Assembly (NCBI RefSeq): GCF_001634885.1
Contig: NZ_LWEX01000168.1
Location: forward strand, 1-39,465
Direction of reading: 5' to 3'
DNA length: 39,465 bases
DNA from: Sulfitobacter sp. HI0040
Lineage (GTDB): Bacteria > Pseudomonadota > Alphaproteobacteria > Rhodobacterales > Rhodobacteraceae
Of the stretch, positions 21,793 through 32,996 are shown piece after piece (positions within the stretch are counted from its first letter, which is position 1; every line of letters starts with the position of its first letter). Made by a program: the position numbers and the translations under genes. The notes beneath the pieces are model-generated. The model saw nothing but the letters and a program-made list of their open reading frames with translations. It made no database searches and had not been told where the DNA came from.

Positions 21793-24504
21793 ATGCTGGG
21801 TATCGGAACAATCGCCAAAAAGGTCTTCGGGACGCCGAATGATCGCAAAATCAAGGCGACGCGCCCGCTGGTCGAACGGATCAACGCGCTGGAACCTGAG
21901 TTCGAGAAGCTCAGCGACGATCAGATCAAGGAAAAGACGCAGGAATTCGCCCGCCGCGCCGAAGAGGGCGAAAGCCTTGATGATCTGCTGCCCGAAGCCT
22001 TCGCCAACTGCCGCGAAGCCGCCCGGCGTACGCTGGGCCTGCGGGCGTTCGACACACAGCTCATGGGCGGGATTTTCCTGCATCAGGGCAATATCGCCGA
22101 GCAGAAGACCGGCGAAGGCAAGACGCTGACCGCGACATTCGCCGCCTATCTCAACGCGCTTACCGGCAAGGGCGTGCATATTGTTACGGTGAACGAATAC
22201 CTCGCAAAGCGCGATGCCGAATGGATGGGCAAGGTTTTCGGTGCGCTGGGGCTGACCACCGGCGTCGCATGGTCCGGCATGTCCGAAGACGACAAGCGCG
22301 CGGCCTATGCCTCCGATATCACCTATGCGACGAACAATGAGCTTGGCTTCGATTACCTGCGGGACAACATGAAGCCCGAGCTGAGCCAGATTTTCCAGAA
22401 GCATCACAATTTCGCCATCGTGGACGAGGTCGACAGCATCCTGATTGACGAAGCGCGGACACCGCTGATCATTTCCGGCCCCTCGCAGGACCGGTCAGAG
22501 ATGTACAGCATCATCGACAAGCTGATTCCGTCGCTCCAGCCCGAGCACTACGAGCTGGACGAAAAGACCCGCAACGTGACCTTTACCGACGAGGGTAACG
22601 AGTTTCTGGAAGAGAAGCTGCGGGCCCACGAGCTGATCGAGGAAGGCCAGAGCCTGTACGATCCCGAAAGCACCACGATCGTTCATCACGTCAATCAGGG
22701 TCTGCGGGCCCACAAGCTGTTCCAGCGGGACAAGGACTACATCGTCCGCGACGGCGAAGTCATGCTGATCGATGAATTCACCGGCCGCATGATGCAGGGC
22801 CGCCGCCTGTCCGACGGATTGCATCAGGCGATCGAGGCCAAGGAAGGCGTCAAGATCCAGCCCGAGAACGTGACCCTCGCCAGTGTGACGTTCCAGAACT
22901 ACTTCCGCCTTTACGACAAGCTCGCCGGGATGACCGGGACGGCCCTGACCGAAGCGGACGAGTTCATGGAAATCTACGGGCTCGGCGTTGTCGAAGTGCC
23001 GACCAACGTGCCCGTGGCGCGCGAGGACGAAGACGATCAGGTCTACCGCACCGCGCGCGAGAAATACGAGGCGATGATCGAAAAGGTGAAGGAGGCCAAT
23101 GAAAAGGGTCAACCCGCGCTGGTGGGAACGACCTCTATCGAGAAATCCGAGATGCTGAGCAATCTGCTGAAGGAGGCGGGGATTCCGCACAATGTCCTGA
23201 ACGCGCGCCAGCACGAACAGGAAGCCCAGATCGTGGCCGATGCCGGCAAGCTGGGGGCGGTCACCATCGCCACCAACATGGCCGGTCGGGGCACCGACAT
23301 CCAGCTTGGCGGCAACGTCGAGATGAAGGTGCTGGAAGCGCTTGCCGCCGATCCTGAGGCGGACCCCGTCGAGGTGCGTAACCGGATCGAGGCGGAACAT
23401 GCGGACGAAAAACAGAAGGTGATCGAGGCGGGCGGCCTCTATGTGCTGGCCTCCGAACGGCATGAAAGCCGTCGGATCGATAACCAGCTGCGCGGTCGGT
23501 CGGGTCGTCAGGGGGACCCGGGGCGGTCGTCCTTCTTCCTGTCGCTCGAAGACGACCTGATGCGCATCTTCGGCTCTGAACGGCTGGAAAAGGTGCTGAC
23601 GACCCTTGGCCTGAAAGAGGGTGAGGCGATCGTTCACCCTTGGGTCAACAAGTCGCTGGAGCGGGCGCAGGCCAAGGTCGAAGGCCGTAACTTCGACATC
23701 CGCAAGCAACTGCTGAAGTTCGACGACGTGATGAACGAACAGCGCAAGGTCATCTTCGGCCAGCGTCGTGACATCATGGAAGCCGCCGATCTGAACGAGA
23801 TCGTCACCGATATGCGGGAGCAGGTCATCGACGACCTGATCGACACCTACATGCCGCCCCGGACCTATGCCGACCAGTGGGACGGCGAAGGGTTCCAGCA
23901 GGCCGTGGTCGAGAAACTGAACATCAACCTGCCCGTGGCCGAATGGTGCGACGAGGACGGTGTCGATGACGAGGTCATCCGCGAGCGCCTGACAGAGGCA
24001 ACATCGCGGATGATGTCCGAAAAGGCGGAAGCCTTCGGCGCGGAAAACATGCGCAACATCGAAAAGCAAATTCTGCTTCAGGCCATCGACAGCAAGTGGC
24101 GCGAACACCTGCTGACGCTGGAGCATCTGCGGTCTGTCGTGGGCTTCCGCGGCTACGCCCAGCGGGATCCGCTGAACGAATACAAGAACGAATCCTTCCA
24201 GCTCTTCGAGACCATGCTGGACAGTCTTCGCGAAGAAGTAACGCAGAAGCTGTGCCGTGTGCGCCCCATGTCCGCCGACGAACAGCGCGAGATGATGGAA
24301 GAGATGGCCGCCCGGCAAGCCGCGGTTCAGGCCGCCGCGAAGGCGGCGGGCCAGCCCGAAGATTCTGCGGGGGCGACCGATGGTTCCGCCCGCGAAGGCT
24401 TTGACGAGAACGATCCCACGACTTGGGGAAACCCCGGGCGGAACGATGAATGCCCATGCGGATCGGGGAAGAAATTCAAGCATTGCCACGGCAAGGTCGC
24501 CTGA
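21793..24504 (+). CDS. secA: Preprotein translocase ATPase SecA
   Basis: 903-residue motor that pushes unfolded preproteins through SecYEG. Walker A is GEGKT (residues 107-111), Walker B-type DEVDS at 211-215, with the GMTGTA and [14 protein letters not shown] helicase motifs and [20 protein letters not shown]. The C-terminal zinc motif is [13 protein letters not shown] (Cys887, Cys889, Cys898, His899), which binds SecB and lipid. Length is normal. ATG 21793 follows GGAGAG. It has its own strong promoter and is divergent from the periplasmic chaperone gene. The following gene pair may be regulated with it, but a terminator separates them. Confidence 0.98.
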
Positions 24505-24508
24505 CACA

Positions 24509-24546
24509 GGGCGCCTTTCTGTCGCCCGACGCCGGGCGCCTTTCTT
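24509..24546 (+). terminator. secA terminator with 12-base direct repeat
   Basis: The stem CGCCCG (24523-24528) pairs with CGGGCG (24533-24538) around ACGC, followed by CCTTTCTTTC. The sequence GGGCGCCTTTCT occurs twice, starting at 24509 and 24534, so the region looks like a partly duplicated terminator. Confidence 0.7.
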
Positions 24547-24628: not shown

Positions 24629-25615
24629 ATGCCAAATCAAAAGGAAATTCTGACCACCGTCGGTGCCTTGGTCGTTGCGGCCGGTATCGGCTTTGCGATG
24701 CAAAGCTCTGCCACGGCTGATCGGTTCTATGGCCCCGGAGAGCAGGCGCAGATACCCTCCTCCGCCGGGTTCGCCAATTCCAGCGATGCCCTGCTGGAGG
24801 TAGAGGGGATCACCCTCACCTCTGCCGAATTCGACGCGATCGTCGCCTCCCCCGCTGCTGAATCGCAGGTCATCCCCGCAGCCGCGCCCCAGGCCCTGCC
24901 GGAACCCACGCCGCCCGCAACACTGCCGGGGCTGGACTGCACCGTAACCGCCGATGCGCGGGCGAAGGCAGCCGCGATGGTTCAGCTGAGCATGTCCGCC
25001 CCTTGCCTGCCGAACGAACGGCTGACGATCCATCACAACGGAATGATCTTCACCCAGACCACCTCCGCCGAGGGAGAACTTGATATCACGGTCCCGGCGC
25101 TCGCCCGGGATGCGGTTTTCATCCTTGCCTTTTCCAGCGGTGATGGCGCCGTCGCACAGGCCACCGTGGAGGATCTGGAAGACTTCAACCGCGTCGTCGT
25201 GCAATGGCGCGGGGACATGGGGTTTCAGATCCATGCACGCGAATTCGGCGCGGCCTATGGGAGCGAAGGCCATGTCTGGTCCGGCGCGCCGCGCGATCTG
25301 ACCGCGGCGATCACCGGGGCAGGCGGCTACATGACGATGAATGGCGACACCCGCGCCGCCGATCCCCTGCTGGCGGAGGTCTATACCTTCCCCAAGATCG
25401 GCACCGGGCGTGACGGGCAGGTTGCCCTGAGCGTCGAAGCGGAAGTGGCCCCTGCCAACTGCGGAACCGAGATCGAGGCGCAATCGCTGGAAATCGGCGG
25501 TGACGGAAAGATCAAATCGCAGGACCTGACGCTGGCGGTGCCGGGTTGTGATGCGCAGGGCAACTTTCTTGTGTTGAATAATCTGCTACAAAACCTGAAA
25601 GTCGCGCAATACTGA
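24629..25615 (+). CDS. Uncharacterised membrane-anchored periplasmic protein (secA-adjacent)
   Basis: 328 residues, not a family whose function I recognise. The N terminus (residues 7-26, LTTVGALVVAAGIGFAMQSS) is a membrane anchor or uncleaved signal with a short cytoplasmic start. After a proline/alanine-rich linker (residues 75-105) comes a mostly beta-predicted body with cysteines at about 111, 130, 274 and 310 that could form two disulfides. Text such as DCTVTADARAKAAAMVQLSM and NRVVVQWRGDMGFQIHAREF is conserved-looking, and codon use matches neighbours. It is 17 bases ahead of an OmpA-domain protein gene, so the pair likely acts together at the cell envelope. An operon role is inferred. 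The SD (GGGA) sits in an inverted repeat. Confidence 0.75.
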   Translation: MPNQKEILTTVGALVVAAGIGFAMQSSATADRFYGPGEQAQIPSSAGFANSSDALLEVEGITLTSAEFDAIVASPAAESQVIPAAAPQALPEPTPPATLPGLDCTVTADARAKAAAMVQLSMSAPCLPNERLTIHHNGMIFTQTTSAEGELDITVPALARDAVFILAFSSGDGAVAQATVEDLEDFNRVVVQWRGDMGFQIHAREFGAAYGSEGHVWSGAPRDLTAAITGAGGYMTMNGDTRAADPLLAEVYTFPKIGTGRDGQVALSVEAEVAPANCGTEIEAQSLEIGGDGKIKSQDLTLAVPGCDAQGNFLVLNNLLQNLKVAQY

Positions 25616-25632
25616 CGCAACGCCGGGGCACC

Positions 25633-27195
25633 ATGTACCTCTTGAAACGTGCGGCGGCTTTCGCCGCACTTTTTCTGTTCTGTTCCACAGTCATTGCCGC
25701 CGCGCAGGATGTCATGCTGACGTCGCGCGACGGCAAGATCGAGGTTGCAGGTACGCTGCTGGGATTCGATGGTGAATTCTACCGGGTGCAGACCGACTTC
25801 GGCGAGTTGACCTTCGACGGGAGCGGTGTGCTCTGCACGGGGCCGGGCTGCCCCAATCTCGACAATTATGTCGCCGAGCTGCAAATTTCCGGCTCTGCCA
25901 CGATGGGGGCGGTCCTGATGCCCGCTTTGTTGGAAGCTTTCGGTCAGCGTGCGGGATTCACCACCACCCGCGAGGATCTCGAAGCCGGGAGCTTCGTCTA
26001 TCATCTGTACGGCGAACGGGACGGCGAGCTTGCCGCCAACTTTTCCTTTCGCGCGACCAATACGAATGAAGGGTTCGCCGATCTGTTGGCGGATGAAGCC
26101 GATGTGGTGATGGCCCTGCGGGAAATTCGCCTGCAGGAGCGTATCAATGCACGCGAGGCCGGTATGGGAGACCTGACCGGGGCCAACCGCAGCCGCGTGC
26201 TGGCGCTGGACGCCATCGTGCCGGTGGTGGCACCGTCGAACCCGGTGGATCGGATTTCGGTGCTCGACCTGGCACGGATCTATTCAGGCCGAATTGTCAG
26301 CTGGAAGGATCTCGGCGGGCCGGATGCGCCCATAGAGATGCATCTGCCGGATGAAGGGAACGGTCTGGCGCAGGCTATCGTGGATCAGATCATGACCCCG
26401 GCAAAGCTGGAACTGGCGGAGGGTATTATCCGCCACCGGTTTCCCGCCGATTTGTCGGACGCCGTGGCAAAGGACAGCTTCGCCATCGGGCTGACCAGTT
26501 TCGCCGAACAGCGCAATACCAAGATGCTGGCGCTCGCCGGGACCTGCGACTTCGCGCTCTCGGCGTCCCGCCGGACGATAAAGACCGAAGATTACCCGCT
26601 CACCGCGCCCATGTTCCTTTATTTTCCGGCACGGCGCCTGCCGCAGATCGCGCGGGAGTTTCTGGCCTTCACCCGCAGCCCGGCGGCGCAGGTCGTCATC
26701 CGCCGTAGCGGGTTCGTGGATCAGGGGCCGGAAGAGATACCGGTGGACGAACAGGGCAACCGCTTTACCAACGCGATCGCGACAGCGGGTTTCGAGACGT
26801 CGCTGGACGAGCTGCAGCGCATGGTGACGACATTGGCCCCCATGCAGCGGCTGACGGTCTCCTTCCGGTTCGAAGCCGGGTCGATCAGGCTGGATGCGCA
26901 ATCCCGCTCCAACATCCAGCAACTGGCCCGCGCGATGGAGCAGGGGCAATACGATGCGCGGCAGATACTTTTCGTCGGGTTCAGCGATGGCGAAGGCCCG
27001 GCAGCGGCAAACCGTGACATCGCGCTTCAGCGTGCCCAGGCCGTATCCCGCGCCGTGCTTGCCGCTGCGGTGACGGCAAACCCCGAAAGGATCGACATCG
27101 GGGTGGAAGCCTTCGGAGAGGCCCTGCCCATGGCCTGTGACGACAGCGCCTGGGGCCGGCAGGCAAACCGCCGAGTGGAGGTCTGGGTGCGCTGA
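25633..27195 (+). CDS. Periplasmic-binding-like domain fused to OmpA C-terminal domain
   Basis: 520 residues. Signal peptide MYLLKRAAAFAALFLFCSTV then AQD. A short beta-rich segment (about residues 30-80, with a CTGPGC pair) precedes a phosphate-binding-type (PBP-like) domain (residues 86-375, starting ISGSATMGAVLMPALLEAFG, with the DLARIYSGRIVSWKDLGG signature of PstS relatives). The C-terminal OmpA domain (about 406-518) has the peptidoglycan-binding pair in FSDGEG (Asp) and LQRAQAV (Arg). It would be exported and hold peptidoglycan while binding a small ligand. It lacks a transporter neighbour, so sensing or anchoring is more likely than uptake. It is 17 bases after the unknown gene; downstream it converges on radC with seven bases between stops. 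Confidence 0.85.
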   Translation: MYLLKRAAAFAALFLFCSTVIAAAQDVMLTSRDGKIEVAGTLLGFDGEFYRVQTDFGELTFDGSGVLCTGPGCPNLDNYVAELQISGSATMGAVLMPALLEAFGQRAGFTTTREDLEAGSFVYHLYGERDGELAANFSFRATNTNEGFADLLADEADVVMALREIRLQERINAREAGMGDLTGANRSRVLALDAIVPVVAPSNPVDRISVLDLARIYSGRIVSWKDLGGPDAPIEMHLPDEGNGLAQAIVDQIMTPAKLELAEGIIRHRFPADLSDAVAKDSFAIGLTSFAEQRNTKMLALAGTCDFALSASRRTIKTEDYPLTAPMFLYFPARRLPQIAREFLAFTRSPAAQVVIRRSGFVDQGPEEIPVDEQGNRFTNAIATAGFETSLDELQRMVTTLAPMQRLTVSFRFEAGSIRLDAQSRSNIQQLARAMEQGQYDARQILFVGFSDGEGPAAANRDIALQRAQAVSRAVLAAAVTANPERIDIGVEAFGEALPMACDDSAWGRQANRRVEVWVR

Positions 27196-32062: not shown

Positions 32063-32887
32063 TCAGCGCCGTGCGCTCCAACTGAGCGAGGCATGTTTGC
32101 GGGTGTAGAATTCGCCCATCATCCCGATCATCAGCAGGACCAGCCCGACCCAGATCGGATACTCCCAATTGCTGTAGCGGGGGTAGTAATTGATGAACGC
32201 GAAGCCCCGGCTTTGATCGATGGCGTGAAACAGCGGGTTCCAGTCGAACATCGCCAGCATGAAACCGGGCAGCGTGTTGGCAAGGAACATCTTGCCCGAT
32301 GCGATCATGTTCGCGCGCTGATAGACGGTGGTGAAGATCTGCACGAAGGTCGGAAACCACGGCTTGATCGCCAGCAGCACCACGCCGAGCGCGCCCCCTG
32401 TGAACCACGCGATGAGCAGCATCCCGAAGGCCGGGATCGGTTGCTCGATCTCCAGCGGGGTCATGACCACGTGATAGGCAAAGAGAATGACGAAGAGCGA
32501 CAGCACCTGAATATAGAGCGCGCCGAAGGCCGCCGAGGCGATCGAGATGACGGTCGTCATCGGGGCGTGCTGCATCATCGGGCTCGCCGGTCCTTCGGAG
32601 GCGACAACGGCGCCGAGCGTCTTGGTGTGCGTGAGGAAGAGGAAGATGCCGGTCATCACGTAGATGAGGAAATCACCACGCACCGCCGCCCCGCGCAGCC
32701 CGAGGATGGTGAACATCACGTAGAAGGCCGCGACGAACAGGACCGCCTGCAGCATGTTCGTGAAAATCGCCATGATGGCGTTGTTATGCGTCTTGCGGAT
32801 CGACCGGACGATCGAGTGATAGATCAGTTCGAGCATCGAAACCGCGCTCGACAAGCGGCCGGTCGGCTTTCGGGTGGACTGGAACAT
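32063..32887 (-). CDS. ABC-2 type polysaccharide export permease (KpsM/Wzm-like)
   Basis: 274 residues. After a basic N terminus (MFQSTRKPTGRLSSA) there are about six hydrophobic segments, among them MAIFTNMLQAVLFVAAFYVM, FLIYVMTGIFLFLTHTK, AFGALYIQVLSLFVILFAYH and FGMLLIAWFTGGALGVVLLA. This is the ABC-2 permease fold used to export capsule or O-antigen chains, with an ATPase partner (KpsT/Wzt) not present in the window. The start 32887 fits a basic membrane-insertion end; the frame start 32977 would overlap the promoter of cysQ. It diverges from cysQ and kdsB. The family is clear; the exported polymer is not. Confidence 0.85.
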   Translation of the reverse strand: MFQSTRKPTGRLSSAVSMLELIYHSIVRSIRKTHNNAIMAIFTNMLQAVLFVAAFYVMFTILGLRGAAVRGDFLIYVMTGIFLFLTHTKTLGAVVASEGPASPMMQHAPMTTVISIASAAFGALYIQVLSLFVILFAYHVVMTPLEIEQPIPAFGMLLIAWFTGGALGVVLLAIKPWFPTFVQIFTTVYQRANMIASGKMFLANTLPGFMLAMFDWNPLFHAIDQSRGFAFINYYPRYSNWEYPIWVGLVLLMIGMMGEFYTRKHASLSWSARR

Positions 32888-32996
32888 CTGCCTGCGCCTC
32901 TGACTGAGCGGGAGTATACACGGAATTCTTGCCGTTCCGTAGTCAGCGCAGCATAAGAGGTTTGAAAAGAATATCAACGAAAGCGGGGCGCAGAGA

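Follow-up and report, generated by a model that had tools for sequence, protein, structure and literature searches.

Whether two adjacent genes lying behind secA form a working unit, and of what kind, is the question raised by a locus in Sulfitobacter sp. HI0040. The genes, here called A and B, lie within a 39,465-nucleotide stretch of DNA (contig NZ_LWEX01000168.1 of assembly GCF_001634885.1, forward strand), which we refer to as the window. The host is a Rhodobacteraceae-type alphaproteobacterium, and the closest named relatives of A found in a genome scan are from Sulfitobacter, at 56-60% identity. A first-pass annotation of the window had suggested an undescribed two-protein unit, perhaps an envelope sensor or a scaffold. 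The reading put forward here, which we credit and doubt in about equal measure, is that A and B form a two-gene envelope or periplasmic module of one alphaproteobacterial family, with the output of B set by an intragenic attenuator. The linkage of the two genes and the hairpin at their junction are well supported. The features on which the argument turns are as follows.

24629-25615, + strand: gene A, 328 amino acids (aa), unnamed family, 3′ of secA (open reading frame and homology searches)
25633-27195, + strand: gene B, 520 aa, exported protein with periplasmic binding protein (PBP)-like and OmpA domains (open reading frame, Pfam)
25649-25669, + strand: conserved hairpin with a 9-bp stem and a 3-nt loop, within B codons 6-13 (signal peptide) (terminator scan, comparison)
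25670-25679, + strand: T-tract behind the hairpin, coding for signal-peptide Leu/Phe (comparison)

Linkage of genes A and B

Both open reading frames (ORFs) were confirmed at these coordinates, on the same strand and 17 nt apart, as was the presence of PBP-type and OmpA domains in one exported protein, all as first annotated. A family panel of 80 genomes, with roughly one genome for each genus, has A in 55 of them, and in 47 of these B lies directly behind it. The genes thus do not occur apart in most genomes, which was the outcome named beforehand as counting against a unit. The matched stretches of the two genes are separated by 21-322 bp in the panel, and never by more than 322 bp in the panel or in a larger sample of the order. 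In that order sample the profile of A matches 166 of 196 genomes, the 186 rows listed all belonging to the window's family, and B is found directly behind A in at least 116 of the 150 A places listed. In a sample of the class, A occurs in 4 of 289 genomes, all four of the window's family; the remaining 285 gave no match, and the 20 of them that were listed are from other families. A one-sided Fisher test for the panel gives p = 6.6e-6 (48/7/9/16) when G021, where broken pieces of B adjoin A, is taken as paired, or 8e-7 (47/8/7/18), with the caveat that genera are not independent events.

The gene order around the pair is argJ and a peptidyl-prolyl isomerase gene (both reverse), secA, A, B, and then radC, dnaJ and dnaK (all reverse). 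The order secA-A-B-radC-dnaJ is complete in 29 of 49 loci, and some of the rest are truncated. We also see that A and B remain adjacent where secA is separated from them or not seen nearby (L134-L137, L031, L035, L131, L212). At two of these loci, L136 and L137, both from the window's genus, Wzz/tyrosine-kinase-like and MlaD-domain genes stand upstream of A at the usual position of secA (Pfam run on L136), and a short ORF separates B from radC.

One genome, G039, carries a paralogous pair in reverse order, with a B-like gene (792 aa) followed by an A-like gene (426 aa) at L064:3741-7418. The A-like protein is recognised by profile searches (E 1.8e-11 and 3.4e-12) and by hhalign (E 6.6e-7), and its B-like partner has about 260 aa ahead of the B homology. 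When the A-like protein was compared with 295 genomes, six gave a match (G039, G043, G215, G698, G774, G782); those in G043, G215, G698 and G774 are ordinary A proteins beside B, and that in G782 is a long-form A, described below, beside B. The paralogous second pair is a finding from one genome, G039.

A conserved hairpin at the start of B

A terminator scan returned six sites in 2851 bp, compared to 2.2 in shuffled sequence, and the junction hairpin at 25649-25669 is among them. The same hairpin bases are seen in relatives from other genera. Using a single fixed criterion, and one locus per genome with duplicates removed by hand, the hairpin is found at 72 of 81 paired loci and at 3 of 14 loci with B only; it is seen with none of six B partners of long-form A, and in one of 20 other B-like genes. 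The same criterion was passed by 5 of 389 interior windows of the same B genes and by 65 of 1580 shuffles. Left out of these classes were L210, with a split B match, and L057, L059 and L125, in which the match starts too far inside the gene. Of the 81 rows treated as paired, which include one locus, L125, that is not genuinely a pair, 49 carry the exact arms of the hairpin; the 14 B-only loci all lack them. In loci with A only, the exact hairpin is found in 0 of 27 and any hairpin in four.

Both the pairing and the bases appear to be maintained. Across 64 distinct rows, 96.4% of the stem cells are paired, and there are 14 double changes compared to a shuffle mean of 3.7, with none of 500 shuffles as high; half of the 14 are in pair 9, on the loop side, where 17 of the 64 rows do not pair, and the shuffles ignore relatedness, both of which lessen the weight of this count. 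Six of 71 rows (L015, L021, L026, L170, L173, L211) are omitted from it; L015 and L021 among them form good hairpins with an even length. The four Ala codons in the stem (B residues 7, 8, 11 and 12) have the four lowest codon entropies among 37 Ala positions, at 0.12-0.49, where the next lowest is 1.10 and the median 1.53. GCA is used in 58 of 63, though it makes up only 11.8% of Ala codons. The first stem codon is CGT, TGT or GGT (Arg, Cys or Gly) in 37, 9 and 2 of 49 rows, so that the bases are kept while the residue changes. RNA folding of the region gave a z of -3.18.

The hairpin has the features of an intrinsic terminator, namely a GC-rich stem, a short loop, a U-tract and conserved pairing. 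Attenuators of the intrinsic-terminator type likewise combine a GC stem, a short loop and a U-tract at an operon junction. The A-B hairpin differs from these in its position after the start codon, within signal-peptide codons, and in its almost invariant sequence. We considered whether it belongs to a general terminator family and rejected this, as the exact pattern has a single match in the window's 4.18 Mb genome and occurs in 30 of the 80 panel genomes, in many at the A-B junction and with some matches elsewhere. No Rfam family matched the hairpin site at threshold, the best being STnc390 at 18.8 bits (gathering cut-off 50).

Two loci show the hairpin beside a damaged B gene. At L191 (G155, positions 2217-2405), only a remnant of B, made up of its first and last codons, is left next to an intact A, with the hairpin kept; the loss of B in this genome is probably recent. 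At L018 (G009, around 2370-2420) the frame of B shifts just behind the kept stem, which is either a real frameshift or a sequencing error.

Domain composition of the two proteins

The two proteins were divided into the following parts.

24647-24697, + strand: A residues 7-23, hydrophobic helix, read as a presumably uncleaved membrane anchor (homolog alignment)
24698-24934, + strand: A residues 24-102, linker (homolog comparison)
24935-25174, + strand: A residues 103-182, probable Ig-like beta-sandwich with invariant Cys104 and Cys126 (model, structure search)
25175-25612, + strand: A residues 183-328, second beta domain with conserved HAxE, GH, Cys278 and Cys307 (alignment, model)
25559-25606, + strand: A residues 311-326, C-terminal tail, candidate docking tail (comparison of paired and unpaired proteins)
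25705-25875, + strand: B residues 25-81, N-terminal stretch with conserved Cys68 and Cys73 (alignment)
25876-26679, + strand: B residues 82-349, PBP_like_2 domain (Pfam)
26317-26373, + strand: B residues 229-247, holding the stretch aligned to the R..SGT loop of PstS-type proteins (alignment)
26866-27171, + strand: B residues 412-513, OmpA domain (Pfam)

Protein A gave no Pfam family match up to E 1 and no match to PDB sequences up to E 5, and its one NCBIfam match, to the 'bluetail' domain, scored 15.7 bits against a cut-off of 21. The hydrophobic N-terminal stretch ends in a GxGFxMQ-like motif in most homologs. About six residues precede the helix and there is no cytoplasmic domain, and A reads as a single-pass, signal-anchor-like protein in which the helix would be an anchor and not a cleaved signal. 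The linker comprises about 65 aa in the window and about 40 to 600 aa among relatives, the long ones beginning with a Big_9-like Ig domain. The long-form A proteins at L031, L032, L033, L034, L035 and L131 are ORFs of 660-1053 aa with a very long Ala/Pro-rich linker, and in L031-L035 Pfam places the Big_9-like Ig domain near the N-terminus.

Four cysteines are invariant across all A proteins compared, 68 paired and 27 unpaired. The structure models of A and B rest on shallow alignments; a genome scan with one protein yielded 6 loci. The model of A has a mean pLDDT (predicted local distance difference test) of 57.1, and residues 183-328 are modelled less well than residues 103-182. A structure search with residues 103-182 returned mostly Ig domains in its top rows, and the best match had a Z of 8.3 and 2.5 A over 72 residues, a Z near 8 being common according to the tool; this part of A is probably Ig-like. 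The same residues alone filled the match list when the A model was searched, so residues 183-328 were barely covered and no PDB match was obtained there. For this second domain we tried an identity with DUF2135 (PF09906; YfaP type), with which it shares a similar VVxxW...L.LH pattern and a co-linear hhalign path. The hhalign result was not significant (E 0.027 one way and 0.68 the other) and there is no Pfam match; the identity is kept only as a lead. The comparison used nine places (L116-L124) from 7 of 100 genomes, from which six proteins were chosen by motif and aligned.

In B, an N-terminus resembling a signal peptide is followed by matches to PBP_like_2 (PF12849; 65.8 bits, gathering cut-off 27) and OmpA (PF00691; 44.9 bits, cut-off 27.2). 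Within the OmpA domain, Asp452 and Arg467 are each kept in 77 of 81 rows and Asn460 is conserved too; we take Asp452 and Arg467 to be the conserved Asp and Arg of the diaminopimelate site in OmpA-type peptidoglycan binders. In PF00691 and these three residues B resembles Pal, YiaD and YfiB; it differs from them in carrying a PBP domain and in lacking a lipobox. A lipobox-like motif is present in 1 of 82 B rows and absent from the B of the window, and because of this B is probably soluble.

The middle domain of B resembles PstS by sequence profile (TIGR02136, PF12849), and the first-pass annotation had included phosphate among its possible ligands. The R..SGT motif is the phosphate loop of PstS phosphate-binding proteins. 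At the R, S and T positions of this loop B has P239, N243 and L245 (with G244). The full SGT is found in 3 of 73 B orthologs, being absent in the other 70 and in the window's B, and in 7 of 23 paralogs. The main cause of its rarity among the orthologs is position 245, where 49 of the 73 have Leu in place of Thr; Arg239 is found in 21 and Ser243 in 52. (These counts exclude L128, L129 and L131-L133, all paired rows.) Thr245 is encoded by four B genes, and three of them adjoin a long-form A with an aberrant tail. The curated PstS model TIGR02136 scores 72.3 bits on B, below its cut-off of 206.6. Further differences from PstS are the added OmpA domain and the absence of any named pst gene among the 25 window ORFs scanned. 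On another contig of the genome there is a stronger PBP_like_2 protein (203.6 bits), encoded between genes for a PstC-type permease and a histidine kinase, which is probably PstS. A Pseudoalteromonas plasmid record holds a 'phosphate ABC transporter substrate-binding/OmpA family protein' that aligns with B at 28.4% identity over 84% of B. The name covers the same two parts, but it implies phosphate, where B has neither the full motif nor a nearby transporter, and it is silent on A and on the hairpin.

Some paralogs of B elsewhere adjoin genes for PilJ-domain, TctC-type, DctP-like (by eye) or LysM proteins. Those at L051, L054, L056 and L058 lie next to exported-looking PilJ (N-terminal domain of type IV pili methyl-accepting chemotaxis proteins) proteins, two successive ones in L058, which suggests further units of a PBP-OmpA protein with a sensor-domain protein.

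Sequence changes after loss of a partner

The two proteins were compared between loci with and without the partner gene, to show which parts depend on it. In A, Asn318 is kept in 55 of 57 paired rows and in 3 of 27 unpaired rows, although this residue was chosen after the alignment had been inspected. On a secA tree of 84 rows (11 of 95 rows, short of secA, are omitted), pairing changes nine times on the best tree, with three changes forced by well supported branches. No random pairing reversed the direction of the Asn318 difference, and the supported independent contrasts between pair and solo loci number only three, too few for a sign test. Considering the tail as a whole, the nine columns from residue 311 show a mean drop in conservation of 0.47 without B, compared to 0.23 for the rest (66 conserved columns), ranking first of 58 such runs. 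The tail counts omit L064, L105, L125, L126, L131 and L141, and L191, with its B remnant only, is counted as paired. The cysteines and the HAxE and GH residues are largely kept in the absence of B. A seems to retain a core role without B and to surrender a B-dependent part. In B, compared across 12 A-less rows, the columns most changed are in the signal peptide (0.25 over 6 columns), and outside it the largest nine-column change falls in the cleft loop 229-247.

Genomic surroundings of the pair

Two terminator-like hairpins lie between secA and A.

24523-24538, + strand: terminator-like hairpin between secA and A (terminator scan)
24498-24513, + strand: weaker second terminator-like hairpin in the same gap (terminator scan)

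In several Sulfitobacter-type relatives this gap also contains a GC-rich inverted repeat followed by T's, judged by eye. A role linked to SecA in secretion was rejected, since these hairpins separate secA from A and the pair also occurs without secA. A Pfam scan of 25 window ORFs named no transporter gene, in agreement with the first-pass annotation; the sole transport-named match was a weak FeoB_N on the GTPase domain of IF-2. Elsewhere in the window, at 32168-32320 (+), Rfam places a Cis2_sRNA match (RF02645, Ruegeria cis2 sRNA; 131.8 bits, gathering cut-off 50) within an ORF at 32093-32956 that itself has no Pfam match at E 1e-4.

A model for the pair and its alternatives

From the sequences we infer attenuation, contact between A and B, and tethering, in the following way. 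A and B would be co-transcribed from a promoter behind secA, and some of the transcripts would stop at the hairpin, after A. Ribosomes that begin to translate B, whose start codon lies 16 nt ahead of the hairpin, would block hairpin folding; translation would in this way control how much B is made and fix the ratio of A to B. B would then hold peptidoglycan through its OmpA domain, and A, fixed in the inner membrane, would reach B via its linker and touch it with the C-terminal tail. Such an arrangement would tether the membrane to the wall or act as a scaffold, and would not be a phosphate sensor; it would be like TolA/Pal in logic only. In TolA-Pal and YfiR-YfiB, as proposed for A-B, a periplasmic partner acts with a wall-binding OmpA-type protein. 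The pair differs from these systems in that A matched no Pfam family and no cytoplasmic enzyme or energy source is seen next to the two genes. A scaffold role, one of the two first suggested, is plausible; a classic sensor role, the other, is unlikely, since both proteins lack an output domain in the cytoplasm.

Several observations weigh against this model. A stands without B at the locus in 7 of the 55 panel genomes that have A (G010, G012, G037, G040, G046, G063, G074), of which G063 and G074 carry B-like genes elsewhere, and B occurs without A in nine genomes of the 80-genome panel (G019, G041, G051, G056, G058, G066, G077, G035, G045); the order is secA-B-radC-dnaJ in G035 and B-dnaJ in G045, the latter judged from the dnaJ neighbour only. 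A is also cleanly absent in L202-L206, including G147, whose congeners have it. Nine paired loci lack the hairpin, and L170, L211 and L133 use a different stem sequence. No sigma-70-like promoter was found upstream of A, and the model of B (mean pLDDT 42.9) is too poor for use. Single A columns outside the tail decay as much as those within it, as seen for His135 (0.90 to 0.07), Gly173 and Gln285. B hardly changes once A is lost, with a mean drop of 0.08 over 169 conserved columns, so B has a function without A. Finally, the correlation of A and B remaining after secA is accounted for (r 0.47) is lower than that of A and dnaJ (0.63), so co-divergence is not specific. An initial mirror-tree value of 0.49 (0 of 2000 permutations) was dropped as proof of contact for this reason. 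What stands of the proposed two-protein unit is the synteny, the pairs kept away from secA, the one paralogous B-A pair and the junction hairpin; A and B are not mutually obligatory.

These exceptions feed the alternative in which A and B are operon partners that never touch: co-regulated envelope proteins of the same process, with a hairpin that merely lowers B relative to A. Survival of each gene alone in several lineages, the little-altered B of A-less loci and the unspecific co-divergence would all be expected from it, and we regard it as possible, if somewhat unlikely. It leaves aside that the tail of A decays above any other conserved run where B is gone, and that G039 has a second case of A-like and B-like genes as neighbours.

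The hairpin could instead be a processing site or the stable 3′ end of a small RNA derived from A, with no attenuation involved. We consider this unlikely, as a 3′ end that serves A should persist where A is alone, and the exact form is missing from all 27 A-only loci. In its favour are the terminator-like shape near the stop codon of A and the retention of the hairpin in G155 where B has eroded; the best Rfam match, STnc390, is far below its gathering threshold.

In a third alternative the pair is an envelope sensor of phosphate or another anion, the PBP domain of B binding the ligand and signalling via A. The match to PBP_like_2, the sub-threshold match to the PstS model, and the persistence of parts of the motif (Arg239, Ser243, and SGT in some paralogs) are consistent with this. 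We nevertheless think it quite improbable, given the substituted loop of the window's B, the rarity of the full SGT among orthologs, the large shortfall on TIGR02136, the six or so residues that A has before its helix, with no cytoplasmic domain, and the separate PstS-like protein encoded with a PstC-type permease and a histidine kinase. The phosphate suggestion of the first-pass annotation is weakened by the same loop data.

Positional hitchhiking, in which a conserved secA-radC-dnaJ block keeps A and B together with no functional link, fits the majority of pairs that lie between secA and radC; it is very improbable in view of the pairs that do not adjoin secA and/or radC (the eight loci named above), the conservation of a junction hairpin that is mostly gone with either partner, and the second pair in G039. 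That the hairpin is a coding by-product, with Ala-Ala and Leu/Phe-rich signal peptides of GC-rich genomes folding by chance as happens in 65 of 1580 shuffles and in one of the 20 other B-like starts compared, is hardly credible beside its frequency at paired loci, the nearly fixed synonymous codons including the rare GCA, the Arg/Cys/Gly exchange under a constant stem, the double changes, and its absence from 11 of 14 B-only loci, where the signal peptide has to do the same work.

Returning to the two-gene module, a bolder form of it can be drawn, which we regard as doubtful. The pair would be a family-specific tether in which the PBP cleft, its anion site lost, serves as a socket for the tail of A, and in which stoichiometry is set by a translation-gated terminator in the signal-peptide codons of B, the signal-peptide sequence being dictated by RNA structure and not by export. 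This socket and translation-gated version is suggested because the tail decays on loss of B, loop 229-247 is the run that changes most in A-less B outside the signal peptide, and three of the four Thr245 forms of B adjoin long-form A proteins with an aberrant tail.

Implications

A search of the titles and abstract beginnings of open-access literature returned no paper on the A family, the A-B unit or the hairpin, in keeping with the description of the unit as undescribed; the available passages of PMC4809877 are unrelated to the pair. The layout of B has already been named automatically on public record, and the unusual part is the nearly invariant hairpin within signal-peptide codons. The word 'phosphate' in the automatic names of B-like proteins is unsupported by the cleft sequence here. 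A is widespread in one large family, has no Pfam match, and usually occupies a fixed place behind secA. With these data, a vague pair of neighbours becomes a testable unit. If our reading is true, the hairpin would be a clear case of selection at the nucleic-acid level overriding codon choice in a signal peptide. It would also be a candidate for an attenuator that responds to the ribosome at the start codon.

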